Origin: a virus | Reading direction: 5' to 3' (one strand) | DNA length: 55,837 nt | Virus record (IMG/VR): IMGVR_UViG_3300035072_000033 | Location: 1 to 55,837 of that record | In this document: piece by piece, positions 25,249 to 55,656 of the stretch | Position numbering within the stretch: the stretch's first letter is position 1 | Layout of the letters: every line of letters begins with the position of its first letter | Notes under the pieces: model-generated | Seen by the model: the letters and a program-made list of their open reading frames with translations, nothing else | Told to the model about the DNA's origin: nothing | Database searches by the model: none | Translations under genes and position numbers: made by a program

Positions 25249-25574
25249 CTGATCAGCACACGAAAGCAGCGGGTGAGATTGGTCCCGTCGGCCAGCGCGA
25301 CCGTGGCGTAGACGGTCGAATAGCAATCCTGATTGCCGCCGGACAGCTGGATCGTCTGGACGAGCCCCGTCGCCCCCTTATCCGCCGCCGACACGCCGCC
25401 CAGGCTGAGCGGGATGTCGTCGCCGTAAAAGTAATCGGCGAGATTTTCGGTGTCGACGGCGACCGAATGCGCCGCTAAAGCGGTCGCGCCGCTCGGCAGC
25501 AGCGTCGTCCAGTCGATCGAGACGTTTTTGACGTCCGACGGGGCCTTCTGGACCGGCGGCCAAGCCTCGATCAC
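25245..25574 (-). CDS. Small structural hypothetical protein
   Basis: 109 residues, ATGA-coupled on both sides. Beta-rich, with Val-Ser-Ile-Asp-Trp, Leu-Ala-Asp-Tyr-Phe-Tyr-Gly-Asp-Asp and a C-terminal strand pair with two cysteines, ending Arg-Val-Leu-Ile-Arg. It resembles the Ig-like small virion proteins found in head-tail regions. Function not recognised. Confidence 0.5.
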   Translation of the reverse strand: MIEAWPPVQKAPSDVKNVSIDWTTLLPSGATALAAHSVAVDTENLADYFYGDDIPLSLGGVSAADKGATGLVQTIQLSGGNQDCYSTVYATVALADGTNLTRCFRVLIR

Positions 25575-25792
25575 GCGCTGGCGCCCGCGCCCTTGCCGGG
25601 TTCGCGCGCCGGCTTGGCGTAGCCAAACTCAAGCGGCTCCGGGATGCGCTCGCCGACGTTCTTGGGCTGTCCGCTCCCGTGCAACTTGACGAAGCCCTTG
25701 CCGATCAGTTTGTCCGCGATGTGGTCCTTGAATCCCGCGACGTCGCCCTGGCAATAAGGCAGGTCGTTCTTGATGAATTCCACGATTTTCAT
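25571..25792 (-). CDS. Small head-region protein, paralogue of 26905-27135
   Basis: 73 residues, with GAGGAG eight bases before the ATG. The first ~37 (Ile-Val-Glu-Phe-Ile...Pro-Tyr...Asp-Val-Ala-Gly-Phe...Ala-Asp-Lys-Leu-Ile) align with the start of the protein at 26905-27135 and resemble small Rho-N-like or LEM-like helical units of phage structural regions. The C-terminal half is Pro/Gly/Lys-rich. It is the first gene after the 1.1-kb ORF-poor stretch. Confidence 0.6.
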   Translation of the reverse strand: MKIVEFIKNDLPYCQGDVAGFKDHIADKLIGKGFVKLHGSGQPKNVGERIPEPLEFGYAKPAREPGKGAGASA

Positions 25793-25814
25793 GAGACATT
25801 CTCCTCGTTGGCGA

Positions 25815-26890
25815 GATTGTGGCGAGCGACGGGCTGAGCCCCTACGGTCTTGCCGTCCTCAATGAGTGCTGGCGGCCTCGCGAGCCGGACCAGATCGCCC
25901 TGGGTATTCGGAATGGGAGCGCCTAGCGCCTCTTTGGTGGTCGTCGCCAATGGACGCTAGGCATACCGGCGTCGTTTCCGGCTTTCCGGCCTTCGTTGTC
26001 ACTGGATTAACGCGCCGGCCCGGCGCATCGTCTGGTGAATAAACCCACGGCTGCATTTTCGGCTGCCCGCGACTGGACCCGTGACCACTGAGAATGCGTC
26101 GTCACCGACCATTGCTTCCGAGCGGGCCGGGCGCTAACCGGCTTTCCGCAATTCCCGGTGCTAGGCCTACGCACCGCAGCGCCTGGCGCGCTCCGGATTT
26201 TGCACAGCCGTTGATTTCAGCCGTTGAAGATACGGGGACCATGGCCGCGTGTCTGCTTTCCACGCCGCCGCTCGAAACTTCACTGCTCATCGAGCGAATT
26301 GTCGCGCTTTCGGCCTTCTGTTGAAGCGCCATGCGCGCCGGATTTCGCCTTTCGCCTCCCCCTCCCAAATCCGGGAAATCAAGGGGTGCTATCGCCGGTC
26401 ATTGCTCCCGGCATTTCCATTGCCCATTCGGGCGAATAAGTTGCCGTCTCTCCGGCTGTCACCGCGCTGCCGGGCCTGCAAGGCCTTGCGGTTCACCCAT
26501 CTACGACCCCCGGCTGGAGGAGACCCATAATTTCTCTAGTGGTCTCATTGTCGCTTTACCGCCGCCGATTTCCGCGAGAGCGGTCATCATTGAGCGTAGG
26601 GAGACAAAAGCTCTGTCGAAACTTCGCTCGCGGCCCATTCGCCGCGAGCAGGCGCCATTCCGCGTAGCGCGCGCCTACTCCGAACCCTTTCCGGCAGTCC
26701 CCTCGTGGTCGGGCCGGATTTGCCCCCGGTTCGTTTCGCCCTGGGATTCACAAAAAAGCGCCGGCTTGTCCGATTGCTTCCCTGTCGAAGGCGACCCGAA
26801 AGCGCCCGCTCCTCGTATCGATCGGACCGTGTTTGCGCTGCTGGCCGGCCAGATCAGCGGGAGGCCGAGGGGCTGGGAAAGCTGGGAATC
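25815..26890 (-). ncRNA. Candidate large structured RNA in the late operon
   Basis: About 1.1 kb without a convincing gene on either strand, inside an otherwise tightly packed operon. Perfect or near-perfect complementary arms are dense: 25921-25928/25955-25962 (8 bp) enclosing 25934-25939/25945-25950; 25966-25976/26009-26018 (10 bp, one bulge); 26130-26135/26178-26183 enclosing 26156-26161/26171-26176; 26269-26275/26290-26296 (7); 26304-26309/26324-26329; 26338-26345/26367-26374 (8); 26394-26398/26408-26412; 26520-26525/26541-26546; 26626-26634/26641-26649 (9). On the minus strand several GNRA-like loops appear. The ends are uncertain. Known large phage RNAs (GOLLD, ROOL) are the comparison; identity with them is not shown. 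Confidence 0.55.
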
Positions 26891-26904
26891 CGTCGATGAG
26901 CGGT

Positions 26905-27135
26905 CTACGGCTGAATCGACGGCCATTGCAGTGAAGGCGGACGCGCCTTTTTCGGCGCGGCCTCCAAAGCCTTTGTGTCTTCGTCCGCCGGGTCGGGCTC
27001 CGCCGCGAGGCTTGGCTCCGCCAGCGGCGCGGCGAGGCCGGCGGCGATCATCCTGGCCGCATGGGCGTCGGAAAATCCGGCGACCTCGTTGATGGCGTAA
27101 GGCGGGTGATGCCTTACGAATTTAACCAGCATCAT
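26905..27135 (-). CDS. Small head-region protein, paralogue of 25571-25792
   Basis: 76 residues from the ATG at 27135, preceded by GAAGGGG; an upstream GTG extension would bury that site. The N-terminal half (Leu-Val-Lys-Phe-Val...Pro-Tyr...Glu-Val-Ala-Gly-Phe...Ala-Ala-Arg-Met-Ile) aligns with the protein at 25571-25792. The C-terminal half is Ala/Pro/Glu/Asp-rich and different. The two copies flank the structured-RNA candidate. Confidence 0.6.
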   Translation of the reverse strand: MMLVKFVRHHPPYAINEVAGFSDAHAARMIAAGLAAPLAEPSLAAEPDPADEDTKALEAAPKKARPPSLQWPSIQP

Positions 27136-27161
27136 CGCCGCCCCTTCCACGCGCCAGCAGA

Positions 27162-27584
27162 TTAGATCGCCGGATGTTCGGTGGCTCCGCCGAGCACGAT
27201 CGTCGCGGTGAGCGGAATCGCCGGGCCGCTGCCGCCGACAAATGTCGGAGTGACCTGCGCGCGGATATAGCCGCGCGTTCCGCGAAGGTTGAACTTCACG
27301 CTGGCCTGTCCATTGTTCGCGGTGATCGGGGTGATCGACGTGCCGGAAACGGGAGCCCAGGAGGTCGTGCCGTCGGGACTGTCCTCGATGTCGGCGGCCA
27401 CCGAAAAGCTCGTCGGCGTGCCGGTCGCGGCGCCGACGCCAACGACGAGAACGCCGCTCTGGTAGTCATAGCCGGGGCCGACCAGCTGAATGGCGGCCCC
27501 GTCGACTTCGACCGCCGCGGCGGCGGCGAGGACATTCACCAGCGCTTTGATATAGCCGCCGATGTCGGTGATGGAGGGAAGCAT
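27162..27584 (-). CDS. Beta-rich virion protein after the capsid gene
   Basis: 140 residues. A short helix precedes a beta-sandwich-like domain with Val-Gly-Pro-Gly-Tyr-Asp-Tyr, Asp-Ser-Pro-Asp-Gly-Thr-Thr-Ser-Trp and Arg-Gly-Tyr-Ile-Arg-Ala, features seen in small decoration or fibre proteins encoded beside capsid genes. There is no clear Shine-Dalgarno sequence before the ATG at 27584. Exact role unknown. Confidence 0.55.
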   Translation of the reverse strand: MLPSITDIGGYIKALVNVLAAAAAVEVDGAAIQLVGPGYDYQSGVLVVGVGAATGTPTSFSVAADIEDSPDGTTSWAPVSGTSITPITANNGQASVKFNLRGTRGYIRAQVTPTFVGGSGPAIPLTATIVLGGATEHPAI

Positions 27585-36195: not shown

Positions 36196-36765
36196 TCAGG
36201 CCGACATCGCCAACTTCGGGGGCCGCTGGCCCATCACCCGTTCGGCTATGTGGCCCACCTCGAAAGGAATGGAGGTGAGCCGACCCATGAAGTTCATTTC
36301 TAGGCGCACGATTCCGAACTTGTCAAGGTCACGCACATCCGACACCGCGCCAAAATGCCCCGCGAAGGTCCCTTCGGTCACGTCGAACACCTGACCAATC
36401 CTGATCTTCGGCATATTTTTCGGCCGCGTCGGCTTATGCTCGCGCCAGAAGCAAATTTGCGCGTCCGGCACCACCGAAGGCGACGAATCACGCGTCGGAC
36501 GCAAAAAGCCGCGCACGTCGTCGAGTTGCTCGACCGCGTTGACCACCGCGTCGCTCAATTCGCAATGCAAAAACAGATATCGACCGAACCGCGGGATTTT
36601 CCGCTCCAGCCGGATCGAGTTCGAGGCCAATGCCCCGCGCCGGTCCCAGGAGCGCACCCGGTCGACCGGCCGCCAAACATCGAACCGCGCCCGCGCCAGC
36701 CTCAGACATGCGTCGAAATCCCGCCCCTGCACCGCCTCGACCACAAACCAGCGCAAACCGTCCAT
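36196..36765 (-). CDS. NusG/RfaH-like transcription antiterminator
   Basis: 189 residues from the ATG at 36765; GGAG inside an upstream ATG codon sits five to six bases before it and decides the start. An NGN domain covers about 1-110 (Leu-Arg-Trp-Phe-Val-Val-Glu-Ala, then Phe-Gly-Arg-Tyr-Leu-Phe-Leu near 60-66, Val-Arg-Gly-Phe-Leu). A KOW domain follows (Ile-Gly-Gln-Val-Phe-Asp-Val...Gly-Thr-Phe-Ala-Gly-His-Phe-Gly-Ala-Val, Asn-Phe-Met-Gly-Arg). Such proteins travel with RNA polymerase. As first gene before the terminase, it probably lets polymerase pass the internal terminators of the ~36-kb late operon. Confidence 0.85.
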   Translation of the reverse strand: MDGLRWFVVEAVQGRDFDACLRLARARFDVWRPVDRVRSWDRRGALASNSIRLERKIPRFGRYLFLHCELSDAVVNAVEQLDDVRGFLRPTRDSSPSVVPDAQICFWREHKPTRPKNMPKIRIGQVFDVTEGTFAGHFGAVSDVRDLDKFGIVRLEMNFMGRLTSIPFEVGHIAERVMGQRPPKLAMSA

Positions 36766-36805
36766 TACTGTCTCCATTCGCTAAATCGTTGAAAAGATGG
36801 AAGGT

Positions 36806-43104: not shown

Positions 43105-43613
43105 AGCAGCAATCCCTTCTTGCGCAGGCGGCATTTGATGTTTCCGGCGTCCTTGGTGGAAATGCCCAATTGCGCCGCGACCGACGCGTTGGAATGCGAG
43201 GCGAGAAACATCGGCAGCCCCTCCGCCTCGAGGCCGAGAAGCTTGACGTCCGACGGCTCCGAATCCGGCGCGTCATGTTGCGGATCGTCGTCGTCCCCGC
43301 TCTCGATATAGGCGCGATGTTCGTCCGGCCAGAGCAGCGCGATCTGCGTGACGATGGCCTCGATCATCTCGACATAATCGCCATACGACCGCAGCGTCGC
43401 GGCTTCGAGCTCGATGGATTTCTCCGACGTGTCGACGACGATTCTCATGCCGCCGCTTCCGCCTTCCGGGAACACCGGCGCTGTGTCGAACGGCCATTCG
43501 CCGAGCACGGAATAGAGACCATGCGGCCCGCGAAGACTGGAGCAGATCCAGCCCAGCGCCTTGAACGCCGCGCGGCGCGAATGCGGAATGTAGACGAATG
43601 TGCGGATGTTCAT
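43101..43613 (-). CDS. Hypothetical early protein with C-terminal HTH-like end
   Basis: 170 residues. The N-terminal half is a mixed alpha/beta unit; an acidic Asp/Glu linker lies near 105-122. The last ~40 residues (Ser-Asn-Ala-Ser-Val-Ala-Ala-Gln-Leu-Gly-Ile, then a basic helix) look like a helix-turn-helix. Coupled on both sides by ATGA. Function not recognised. Confidence 0.5.
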   Translation of the reverse strand: MNIRTFVYIPHSRRAAFKALGWICSSLRGPHGLYSVLGEWPFDTAPVFPEGGSGGMRIVVDTSEKSIELEAATLRSYGDYVEMIEAIVTQIALLWPDEHRAYIESGDDDDPQHDAPDSEPSDVKLLGLEAEGLPMFLASHSNASVAAQLGISTKDAGNIKCRLRKKGLLL

Positions 43614-44623
43614 GACGACGCCTCAAATCCCTCGGCTTCCAGTCCCCACGCGTCCCAGCCCTCGCGCGCGGGGCCGCGCCGATTGAGCTCGATCTTGGGA
43701 AGGTTGGGGAAATAGCTTTCGATCAGTTCGAGAAAGACTTCCGGCTTGGCGGAATGCTCAGCAAGCGGCGCGTCGATCACCGAATCCCATTGCGTTCCCG
43801 CCGCCGGCGCGGCGATCGCCCCCCGGACGCCGATGAGCAATAGCTCGTGCTTGTTGCGGTTCCAGTAGCCCATGCCGATGCGGTTCTTGTTCCAGACGAA
43901 CTGCGATTTATAGGCGAACCCCCAGGCGCGCAGGACGCGCAGCGCATCTTCGATCATCGGCGCCGTCGCCCACAGGAACAGCGCGCAATCGTCGGCGGCG
44001 ATGGACGCCACGTCGCGCTCGGCGATGCCGGTTGTTTCCGTCGTCGGATAATGGTTCTCCGGCGCGCGATCCATGCCGGAGACGCGCGAATAAGGTTCGA
44101 ACCGCCATTCGGGATCGGCGAGAATCACGCCATAGCGCTTGTCCGGCAGCGCGCGTTGACGAACCGCCAATTCGCGCTCGCGCGCCTCGCGCGATTCCTG
44201 CTTTTCGCGCAGACGTTCGCCGGCCGGCCGCTCGATCGACGCGACCGCCTCCCGCTTGGCGCTTTCCGCGCGGCGTTCGAACTCTTCCTCGCCGAGAAGG
44301 GCGAGCTGTTGCCAGCGCGATGATTGCGACTTGCTGACGCCGAGATCGATCAGCTTCGGAGTCGCGCTTTGCGACCCCGATTTACGGTCGCCGCATCCCC
44401 GATCGCGCTCACCCTTTTCCGCCATGTCGCGCAAGATCTCGCCGGCGCGGCGTTCGGCGCGCATCCGAATGTCGGTCGCATAGCCGATTAATTCGCCGTC
44501 CTTCGCTTGCAACGCATAAGCGCGACAGGCGACGGCCTTGTCGCGAATCGCCTTCACCTCGTCGAAGCGAAACGCTTCGGCCAACGCCGCCCGCGCCATG
44601 TCATAGCGAGCGAGCCCGTTCAT
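43610..44623 (-). CDS. MT-A70-family adenine methyltransferase
   Basis: 337 residues from the ATG at 44623. The N-terminal ~150 are helical and charged, a target-recognition or ParB-like HTH segment (Leu-Gly-Val-Ser-Lys-Ser-Gln-Ser-Ser-Arg-Trp). The methyltransferase core has Ile-Leu-Ala-Asp-Pro-Glu-Trp-Arg-Phe near 167-175, where the usual DPPW reads DPEW, then Asn-His-Tyr-Pro-Thr near 193, Leu-Phe-Leu-Trp-Ala-Thr near 220 and Gly-Asn/Tyr-Trp-Asn-Arg-Asn-Lys-His-Glu near 260. It probably makes N6-methyladenine in DNA to evade restriction or mark phage promoters. Confidence 0.8.
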   Translation of the reverse strand: MNGLARYDMARAALAEAFRFDEVKAIRDKAVACRAYALQAKDGELIGYATDIRMRAERRAGEILRDMAEKGERDRGCGDRKSGSQSATPKLIDLGVSKSQSSRWQQLALLGEEEFERRAESAKREAVASIERPAGERLREKQESREARERELAVRQRALPDKRYGVILADPEWRFEPYSRVSGMDRAPENHYPTTETTGIAERDVASIAADDCALFLWATAPMIEDALRVLRAWGFAYKSQFVWNKNRIGMGYWNRNKHELLLIGVRGAIAAPAAGTQWDSVIDAPLAEHSAKPEVFLELIESYFPNLPKIELNRRGPAREGWDAWGLEAEGFEASS

Positions 44624-44898
44624 CGCCGCCCCGCGAGTCTTCGAATAATCTCCAGCCCGCGCAGCATCGCCTCGACATGATCTGGAAACCGCCAGTCGCC
44701 GCACAAAAACCACGCCAGCGCGACGCAAATCTCGTCGATCGCCTCGCGCGCCTGCGCCGGCATCACCGCCCAGTTGCGCGAGCGCCGAACGATGCCCTTA
44801 AGGATCTGCGCGACGCGCGCCGATTCGTCGAACTCGCCATGCGTCGCGTCGCGCTCCGCGCTTCGTTCCACGGGTGCGCGCCTGGTCTTCTTCCTCAC
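44620..44898 (-). CDS. Small hypothetical early protein
   Basis: 92 residues, ATGA-coupled. Basic N-terminus, helical core with Val-Ala-Gln-Ile-Leu-Lys-Gly-Ile-Val, Leu-Ala-Trp-Phe-Leu-Cys-Gly-Asp-Trp and a basic end. Not recognised. Confidence 0.5.
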   Translation of the reverse strand: MRKKTRRAPVERSAERDATHGEFDESARVAQILKGIVRRSRNWAVMPAQAREAIDEICVALAWFLCGDWRFPDHVEAMLRGLEIIRRLAGRR

Positions 44899-45756: not shown

Positions 45757-46165
45757 TTACGGGGACTCCCGTGCTGTCCTGCTCAAGACAGGAGGACGCA
45801 CGTCACGCTTCGAAATGACCCGTGGGACGGGCCCGAACCAACCGACGCGGCGAACGGGGGGCGATCGCCGCGCCGGCCAACCGACGCATCAAGCAACGCT
45901 ACGAAAACACGCCGGGCTTTTATCCACGCGATGCCCGGCCCCGCGCTTGCGGTCGACGCGAAGAACAACCCCCGCGCGCCGACGGAACTCTCACCCTCCC
46001 AAAAGCCCCGCGCGACGGGCGCCGCGCGGGGAAGTCAAGGGAGGAAACGCCCAAGGAGGGCTACGAAGCATCGGACACCCGAGGCTGCGAACCTCGCGCG
46101 GCCATCGAGCCCGCGCGAAGAGGGGAAGCGCCGGAGAGCCGGCGCGAAAGGGGAGGGGGCGGCGC
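45757..46165. other. 409-bp gap between cro and the early operon
   Basis: No supportable gene on either strand; overlapping open frames here are Arg/Pro/Ala-rich and follow GC bias. The gap contains the terminator at 46001-46031 and an 11-bp direct repeat CCAACCGACGC at 45838-45848 and 45877-45887. A short stem TCCTG/CAGGA lies at about 45776-45792, just upstream of the next gene. The layout recalls the nut/tR1 region of lambdoid phages, but no boxA/boxB pair was recognised. Confidence 0.5.
46001..46031 (-). terminator. Attenuator-type terminator after cro
   Basis: Perfect 9-bp GC stem (46006-46014/46023-46031) with an 8-nt loop; on the minus strand it is followed by C and TTTT. Located about 135 bp after the end of the Cro-like gene and 245 bp before the next early gene, it would limit early transcription to cro unless polymerase reads through, as tR1 does in lambda. 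Confidence 0.75.
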
Positions 46166-54416: not shown

Positions 54417-54787
54417 CCCGCCGCGCCGCCCCACGCATCCGCGCCCCCGAGGCCGCCGCCATGCTTGGCGTCACGCTGCGCGGGCTGCAGGCGCTGGCGG
54501 CGCGCGGCGCCTTGCCAGGGGCGGCGAAAATCGGCACGCTATGGACCTTCGACCCCGAAAAACTCCGCCGCTTCATCGCGGCCAGGGAGGCGGAATGCGC
54601 GAGCCGAATCTCTATCAACGCGCCGGCGTCTGGTGGCTGCGCGCCACGATCCGTGGCGTCGAACACCGAGAAAGCCTACGAACGCGCGATGTCAAGACTG
54701 CTCGGCGGCTCCGCGACGCGCGGATCGAGGAAATCTCGGCCGCGCGCTGGCGCGGCGAGCGCGCGCGATCATGGCGCGACGCGGTGA
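54413..54787 (+). CDS. Excisionase-like HTH protein
   Basis: 124 residues from the ATG at 54413 (ATGA overlap). The first ~60 residues are a MerR/excisionase-type winged HTH: Arg-Ala-Pro-Glu-Ala-Ala-Ala-Met-Leu-Gly-Val, Leu-Gln-Ala-Leu-Ala-Ala-Arg-Gly-Ala-Leu-Pro, Trp-Thr-Phe-Asp-Pro-Glu-Lys-Leu-Arg. The remaining 60 residues overlap the integrase gene in another frame and look unselected (Ser/Arg/Ala/Gly). The overlap of 193 bp is unusually long. Likely assists excision and binds near the att arm sites. Confidence 0.7.
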   Translation: MTRRAAPRIRAPEAAAMLGVTLRGLQALAARGALPGAAKIGTLWTFDPEKLRRFIAAREAECASRISINAPASGGCAPRSVASNTEKAYERAMSRLLGGSATRGSRKSRPRAGAASARDHGATR

Positions 54788-55656
54788 CGGCGTGGGCCGA
54801 GCACGCCGCCGACCAGCTCGCCCCCTCCACCGGACGTCGCTACGCGGTCTCCCTCGGCATGATCGAACAGCATCTCGCGCCGTTCGACATCGACAGGATC
54901 GACGGGGCGTCAATCGCCACGCTGATCGCCGCCCGCCGGCGCGAAGGCGCGAGCCCGGCGACGGTGCGCCGCGACCTCACGGCCATCTCGCAGGTGCTTG
55001 ACCACGCCGAGGCGATGGGCTGGCGCGAGGGCAACCCGACCCTCTCCAAGCGCCGCATGCTCAAGGAGCGCCGCGACCCGATCGCGTTGCCCGACCCGGC
55101 CGACATCGAGGCGACGATCGCCGCCGCGAGCCCGCGCTTCGGCGCTCTGATCCGCGCGGCTTGGCTGACCGGCTGCCGCCAGGACGAACTGGTCACCGCG
55201 AGCTGGCGCCGCTTCGACGCCCGTGCCGGAACGCTCGAAATCATTGGCAAGGGCAACAAGCGCCGCACCCTCGCGCTGTCGCGCCAGGCGACGGCACATA
55301 TCTCGGCACAGCCGGCGACGCTTGGAAGCAACCTGATTTTTTGCCGCGAGGGCGGGCTGGCGTTCAAGGAGGCGGCCTCGGACTTCGGCCACTTGCGCCG
55401 CAAGGTCGAGACCGACGCCAAACGCGAAAAGCGCGAATTCCGCCGCTTCCGCTTCCACGACTTGCGTCACCTGTTCGCGGTCGAGTGGCTGAGGGGCGGC
55501 GGCAATATTTACGACCTATCGAAGCACCTTGGCCATACGAGCGTGAAGACGACCGAGATTTATCTCGATTTCCTCACGCCGGACGAAGCGAGCCGCGCCA
55601 AATCAGGGTCGACACATAACCCGGCACACGACCGGCGGTCTCGCGACGCCGGATAA
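54595..55656 (+). CDS. int: Tyrosine-family integrase
   Basis: 353 residues from the ATG at 54595, with GGGAGG upstream. A short N-terminal arm-binding part, a core-binding helical domain (about 60-150) and the catalytic domain. Catalytic set: Arg195 (Gly-Cys-Arg-Gln-Asp-Glu), Lys219 (Ile-Ile-Gly-Lys-Gly), His288-Xaa-Xaa-Arg291 (Phe-His-Asp-Leu-Arg-His), His314 (Leu-Gly-His-Thr-Ser) and Tyr323 (Glu-Ile-Tyr-Leu). It catalyses integration at the tRNA-Ser anticodon region. It ends 54 bp before the right att core. Confidence 0.95.
   Translation: MREPNLYQRAGVWWLRATIRGVEHRESLRTRDVKTARRLRDARIEEISAARWRGERARSWRDAVTAWAEHAADQLAPSTGRRYAVSLGMIEQHLAPFDIDRIDGASIATLIAARRREGASPATVRRDLTAISQVLDHAEAMGWREGNPTLSKRRMLKERRDPIALPDPADIEATIAAASPRFGALIRAAWLTGCRQDELVTASWRRFDARAGTLEIIGKGNKRRTLALSRQATAHISAQPATLGSNLIFCREGGLAFKEAASDFGHLRRKVETDAKREKREFRRFRFHDLRHLFAVEWLRGGGNIYDLSKHLGHTSVKTTEIYLDFLTPDEASRAKSGSTHNPAHDRRSRDAG

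Follow-up and report, generated by a model that had tools for sequence, protein, structure and literature searches.

A mosaic of separable structured RNA modules in a phage late operon suggests several novel types of phage RNA

Introduction

What does a phage keep in 1.1 kb of its late operon if not a protein gene? The DNA analyzed here, referred to as the window, comprises 55,837 nucleotides of viral sequence from IMG/VR (record IMGVR_UViG_3300035072_000033). Its late region is myovirus-like, lies on the minus strand and encodes terminase, portal, protease, capsid, small connector-region proteins and tail sheath. The window carries a tRNA-Ser gene at its left end (38–127) and a tyrosine integrase gene near its right end (54541–55656), and it is likely a prophage integrated at a tRNA gene. 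It also contains a suhB/mmgR small RNA, a family associated with Rhizobiales, identified with Rfam at 45993–46068 on the minus strand (44.4 bits, above gathering).

Within the late region, an ORF-free stretch separates two small genes that match one PHROG family, phrog_38773 (Table 1). An initial annotation, made from the sequence by itself, proposed that this stretch may encode a large structured phage RNA on the minus strand, reminiscent of GOLLD and ROOL. These are large structured RNA loci of phages and prophages that are often near tRNA genes and have no known function (PMC12286853).

Results

The initial annotation was right that the stretch holds no protein gene. Codon-phase GC spread is mostly 0.01–0.16 on both strands, compared with 0.2–0.46 in the flanking genes, and a search of its ORFs against Pfam and PHROGs gave no family, with a single, obviously spurious sub-cutoff match. 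In an alignment of the window with two loci drawn from the module A contigs described below (L122 and L105), single-base indels occur and no conserved protein frame emerges, since the only ORF with apparent similarity is broken in L105. The stretch is therefore non-coding, and the lack of codon-phase signal and family match, together with the frame-breaking indels, excludes a protein gene or pseudogene. The stems named in the annotation are also present, such as the 8-bp stem GCCTAGCG/CGCTAGGC at 25922/25955, which falls inside module G. Strong self-complementarity as an unusual property in itself did not survive comparison with shuffled controls, as the stretch contains 22 perfect 6-bp stems versus 18.0 ± 4.6 in shuffles. 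The minus-strand MFE z score was −2.6 (−1.8 to +1.3 for four coding controls), and 150-nt windows of the stretch were no more stable than its flanks. Taken alone, the stretch folds only slightly beyond chance; the MFE statistics are weak and not decisive, and a case built only on stems would be weak. Proof of structure thus has to come from relatives, rather than from stem density.

Relatives gathered via the capsid protein mostly lack the array and gave no usable alignment, p81 as bait returned zero matches, and searches for DNA homology of the stretch in phage and plasmid collections gave nothing useful. Promoter and terminator scans found none. In the close capsid relatives L002, L004, L005 and L041, the corresponding gap is only ~18–165 bp and module A was not found in it; in L002, tblastn synteny places the 73-aa gene 18 bp after a 140-aa gene, with the array absent. 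Since the gap in these relatives is short and without module A, the stretch is an accessory insertion. A DNA search across 298 genomes, which belong to the family of a Rhizobiales MAG, returned short hits covering various parts of the stretch, with E values down to 1e-17. Several of these loci fall within prophage head regions and are oriented like the operon, and two parts can co-occur at one locus in an order unlike that of the window. These features suggested a modular RNA.

Table 1. Features of the array and its surroundings, in window coordinates unless a locus is named
Feature	Position	Strand	Evidence or remark
ORF-free stretch	25793–26904		between two small minus-strand genes
Flanking gene, 81 aa	26905–27150	−	phrog_38773 match
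Flanking gene, 73 aa	25571–25792	−	phrog_38773 match
Segment H, first part of array	26760–26884	−	conserved in alignment with L122 and L105
Module F, conserved RNA core GCGAAA-NN-AACC / GGCAAA / GGTT-NN-GAGTAGG	about 26627–26759	−	pattern and covariation
Module E, ACCGC...GCGGT-GACAG-hairpin	26421–26523	−	81% over 105 nt in L075, L163
Module D	26333–26436	−	73% over 105 nt in L080; kept in L105
Module C, directly 5′ of B	26274–26341	−	82% over 68 nt in L076, from another genome; kept in L105
Module B, three-way-junction scaffold around variable insert	26118–26274	−	model R2, 55.9 bits
Module G, between B and A	25922–26118	−	kept in L122, absent as unit in L105; boundaries inferred
Module A, 88-nt multi-branched RNA with closing stem and four hairpins	25822–25909	−	strongest covariation of the set
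NusG-domain protein	36196–36777	−	PF02357, E 6.7e-8; upstream of array, same strand
tRNA-Met (CAT) in other loci	L077 9785; L084 9893; L113 6069; L128 1593; L145 656; L148 583

The conserved-hairpin pattern of module A occurs in 40 viral contigs, and a covariance model (R1) gave 52 matches, with 96.9% of cells paired. In the R1 alignment, which is fitted to the structure and with which a MAFFT alignment of 27 sequences agrees, two-sided changes affect 19 of the 24 pairs and amount to 151 double-changed cells (0/500 shuffles); pairing falls to 37–52% in slid controls. The closing stem and the last hairpin show compensatory GC/AU/CG changes. All 18 virus records tested contain one strong copy, and a genome survey with strict filters found A in 17 of 397 genomes of the order, as one copy in 16 and two in the other. 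It usually sits next to the gene for the major capsid protein in Mu-like prophages: the upstream gene is Mu gpT in 13 of 37 loci, placing A just after the major capsid gene, and the downstream gene is Mu gp36 in 10 of 36. On chromosomes, 15 of 18 loci adjoin capsid, neck or portal genes. Across the A loci, neighbors other than gpT and gp36 include portal, terminase, HK97 capsid and MT-A70 methylase genes. L003, which has the window's capsid type, carries A directly after the capsid gene.

In 28 of 31 loci, the closest gene downstream of module A has the same orientation as the module. Gene calls on the viral loci, made with a simple script, place it within a predicted ORF in more than 12 loci, usually in one frame (RSGTAREAPST...). 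In L103, L106 and L111, A is the region coding for the C-terminal tail of MT-A70-type DNA methylases; the window has an MT-A70 protein (43610–44728) without module A.

The window copy of module B is recognized by its model with an E value of 2.5e-8 in 1.1 Mb. An exact 20-mer of B, GGCGTGGAAAGCAGACACGC, occurs in at least 120 viral contigs with GC contents of 0.35–0.68, compared with one occurrence of B in 398 Pseudomonadota genomes. The 20-mer is followed ~45–180 nt downstream by a second hairpin, and the outer ends of the element pair. B therefore comprises a closing stem (P1), the hairpin GCGUG-GAAAGCAGA-CACGC (P2) and a hairpin (P3) with the loop TTAGCGC in the window and (A/G)GUAGCGN elsewhere. 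In an alignment of 65 distinct cores, pairing holds for 99.4% of cells, and double-changed cells number 215, versus at most 69 in shuffles. Exact-pattern searches bias the variation sampled, and since the exact 20-mer fixed P2 by construction, a second search left P1, P2 and most of P3 free. This search yielded 91 distinct cores; P2 is complete, with five pairs, in 84 of them, and P1, with seven pairs, in 77. P2 varies between GCGTG/CACGC, GCGCT/AGCGC, GCGGG/CCCGC, GCGTT/AACGC and GCATG/CATGC, and all three helices covary (307 double-changed cells versus a shuffle maximum of 96).

The inserts of B are highly diverse, with 62 clusters among 70, and are no more stable than shuffled sequences. 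A T-arm motif is present in three of the 70 (0.09 expected), too few cases for tRNA mimicry to be a general role of the inserts. Orientation bias is weak, as the upstream gene is in sense in 54 of 82 cases and the downstream gene in 66 of 95. Of 111 B copies, 21 have a −10-like box 9–16 nt upstream, versus 4 and 7 in control windows. Cultured carriers include the Pseudomonas phages Persinger, PotUPM1 and Orimi01 and the Ochrobactrum phage POI1126. In Persinger, B is followed by genes of the opposite strand, and in POI1126 B lies among small genes oriented opposite to the head operon. One B RNA is situated between the tRNA genes of a seven-tRNA phage array (L183, 84–2723), with similar arrangements in L199 and L283, and the B-bearing phage L177 has a possible group I intron at 1231–2035 (39.8 bits; gathering 50).

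The module F pattern was found in 24 viral stretches, one of which, L149, is apparently not a full copy. Two-sided changes affect 5 of 11 pairs, a level reached by 0 of 500 shuffles. The closing stem occurs as CG..CG, GC..GC, GG..CC and CC..GG, and the inner stem shows the matched variants CCGGC/GCCGG, CCGCC/GGCGG, CCGAC/GTCGG and CCCGC/GCGGG. Modules A, B and F thus all show compensatory changes beyond shuffled and slid controls, which we took as the test for a structured RNA. The remaining units of the array, C, D, E, G and H, are defined by conservation alone. E and many F copies (among them those of L096, L144, L146, L152, L156 and L162) have a 3′ motif in common, TGACAG with a hairpin with a GNNAGA-like loop, which is possibly one shared RNA sub-motif.

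The modules are separable. L122 retains the array in full, at 87% over 1068 nt, and there it is situated between terminase-like and portal-like genes. Since the L122 terminase is only 31% identical to that of the window and the L122 head module differs, the array appears to have spread horizontally. In L105 the array is present with E and G cleanly missing as whole units. Elsewhere the order changes: A is followed by E in L075 and L163 and directly by F in three loci (L096, L120 and L124), B is followed by F within 14 nt in L162, the D–F order in L080 is reversed relative to the window, with D 5′ of F, and in L146 E matches 3′ of F. The stretch is therefore a mosaic of separable structured RNA modules and not one GOLLD- or ROOL-like RNA. 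At least three independent structured elements, A, B and F, are shown here, and the array probably contains six or more. Phages exchange these modules as cassettes, such that one RNA turns up at different positions in unrelated phages, frequently together with a tRNA-Met gene. This gene ends a few nucleotides before A in L113 and L128 and before B in L084, and is near F in L077, L145 and L148. We are nearly certain of the combination of RNA structure, sense orientation, modularity and phage association.

The NusG-domain protein of the window is 97% identical in L122. NusG-domain proteins are encoded by 9 of 36 phage records with A or F and 4 of 40 with B, whereas 11 relatives that gave no module A match all lack one. 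The window protein is a possible antitermination partner of the array; presence in only part of the module-bearing phages excludes NusG as an obligatory partner.

Comparison of A, B and F with all 4227 Rfam 15 families gave no match. GOLLD and ROOL covariance models found nothing at gathering score in the window and nothing at E values up to 5 in 25500–27200. Further Rfam scans of the A and F loci and 20 B loci (for B, E up to 1) revealed only tRNAs, the sub-threshold group I intron and, elsewhere, a symR antitoxin RNA match that is also sub-threshold (L105, 4025–4095; 30.5 bits, gathering 61). A literature search restricted to open-access full text turned up no description of the elements; unpublished or closed descriptions, or those in large candidate sets outside Rfam, could escape such a search. 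The core proposal of the initial annotation, a phage-encoded structured RNA on the minus strand of the late operon, was thus borne out by comparison with relatives and by their covariation. As for the likeness to GOLLD and ROOL, what stands is an unexplained phage RNA of a kind often near tRNA genes; the single large RNA does not, as the modules are found apart, reordered and, in L105, two short, and neither does a match to these or other Rfam families.

Discussion

If the array is a set of RNA modules, what do they do? From their distribution and structure, we propose that the modules are exchangeable accessory phage RNAs that act in trans, a reading we hold to be probable by a slight measure. 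The array would be transcribed within the late transcript, and folded units would then be trimmed out of it. The P1 stems that join the ends of A and B and the tRNA-Met genes just before them fit discrete mature units, and a mature B unit is also hinted at by the −10-like boxes, from which B may start in other phages under its own promoter. The conserved loops could have a protein partner from the host or the phage, with RNA polymerase, RNases and RNA-targeting defense factors as candidates, and the variable insert of B would bear the phage-specific part. For processing, action in trans and the nature of the target, we consider the chances about even. The arrangements in Persinger and POI1126 oppose a purely cis action of B. 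For A, the frequent location inside an ORF argues against a trans role, which would require excision of the RNA from a message, and its preference for the site that follows the major capsid gene suggests local action in cis.

The main alternative, which we regard as unlikely but of real weight, is a cis-acting element of the late transcript that binds RNA polymerase or a specialized NusG for antitermination, or that marks where the transcript is processed or stabilized downstream of the capsid gene. LoaP/RfaH-type systems use specialized NusG proteins to suppress termination, and put-type RNAs bind the beta-prime zinc-binding domain of RNA polymerase. The put RNA of HK022, ~70 nt with two stem-loops downstream of early promoters, works without protein (PMC9378689), and the modules, likewise short phage RNAs in operon sense, may by analogy act on RNA polymerase. 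A single A per phage, in a head operon and in sense with the downstream gene, would suit such a signal, as would its tolerance inside ORFs, expected for a co-transcriptional signal and fitting A especially, and the conservation of the NusG protein in L122. However, NusG is missing from most A phages, including the sampled Mu-like ones, and present in only 10% of B phages; A is mid-operon rather than in a leader, a succession of several distinct modules would be redundant, and B can have no same-strand genes downstream. Moreover, the helix layouts of A, with its closing stem and four hairpins, and of B differ from the two stem-loops and ~70 nt of put.

Other explanations are much less probable. 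That the modules are new small self-cleaving ribozymes, candidates for freeing tRNAs or late mRNAs, strikes us as improbable. Theta ribozymes of gut phages, which are HDV-like, cleave at sites adjoining phage tRNAs (PMC10879173), and A and B likewise are small, lie a few nucleotides from tRNA-Met and have compact junction folds with invariant loops; their helix order is not HDV-like, however, with P1 joining both ends of each element, cleavage by A inside ORFs would destroy the message, and no Rfam ribozyme family matches. We give very little credence to an accumulation, in a tolerant gap, of mobile palindromic DNA repeats akin to Rickettsia RPEs or rhizobial RIMEs. The short length and variable order of the modules would be expected of these, and A, like RPEs, keeps to one reading frame within proteins that are otherwise unrelated. 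Such repeats are present in multiple copies per host genome, whereas A has one strong copy per phage record or genome, nearly always beside phage genes, with strong two-sided covariation, invariant loops and a preferred operon orientation. Least probable of all is one large ornate RNA of the GOLLD or ROOL kind with the modules as its domains. The size, the late-operon setting, the tRNAs near the modules in relatives and the full 1.06 kb kept in L122 would suit it, but the modules of 90–160 nt occur alone and reordered, L105 cleanly lacks two and no Rfam model matches.

Returning to accessory RNAs that act in trans, one form that we consider doubtful, though worth stating, is that B serves phages widely as an RNA chassis, in which an invariant three-way junction presents an exchangeable phage-specific insert (a decoy, tRNA mimic or guide), and that the array is an accessory-RNA island directed against host machinery or defenses. 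The diversity of the inserts and their lack of stability beyond shuffles weigh against action in trans. We know of no parallel for such a fixed scaffold whose insert is unrelated from one phage to the next.

The three strongly supported families without an Rfam match would reveal a layer of phage biology that is invisible to gene-based annotation, and one of them, B, spans phage contigs of 35 to 68% GC with very different hosts. As B is present in cultured Pseudomonas and Ochrobactrum phages, its expression, processing and partners are open to direct testing. A 2017 survey of candidate RNAs reportedly described a Mu-gpT-DE motif downstream of Mu-type gpT capsid genes. By that description it occupies a place similar to that of A, which also occurs away from gpT; the A loci just after gpT match no Rfam family even at E values up to 3. 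Finally, the Acb2/Tad1 hairpin domain, known from anti-CBASS proteins, is matched by 2 of the 36 genes just downstream of A, a hint of a counter-defense neighborhood.
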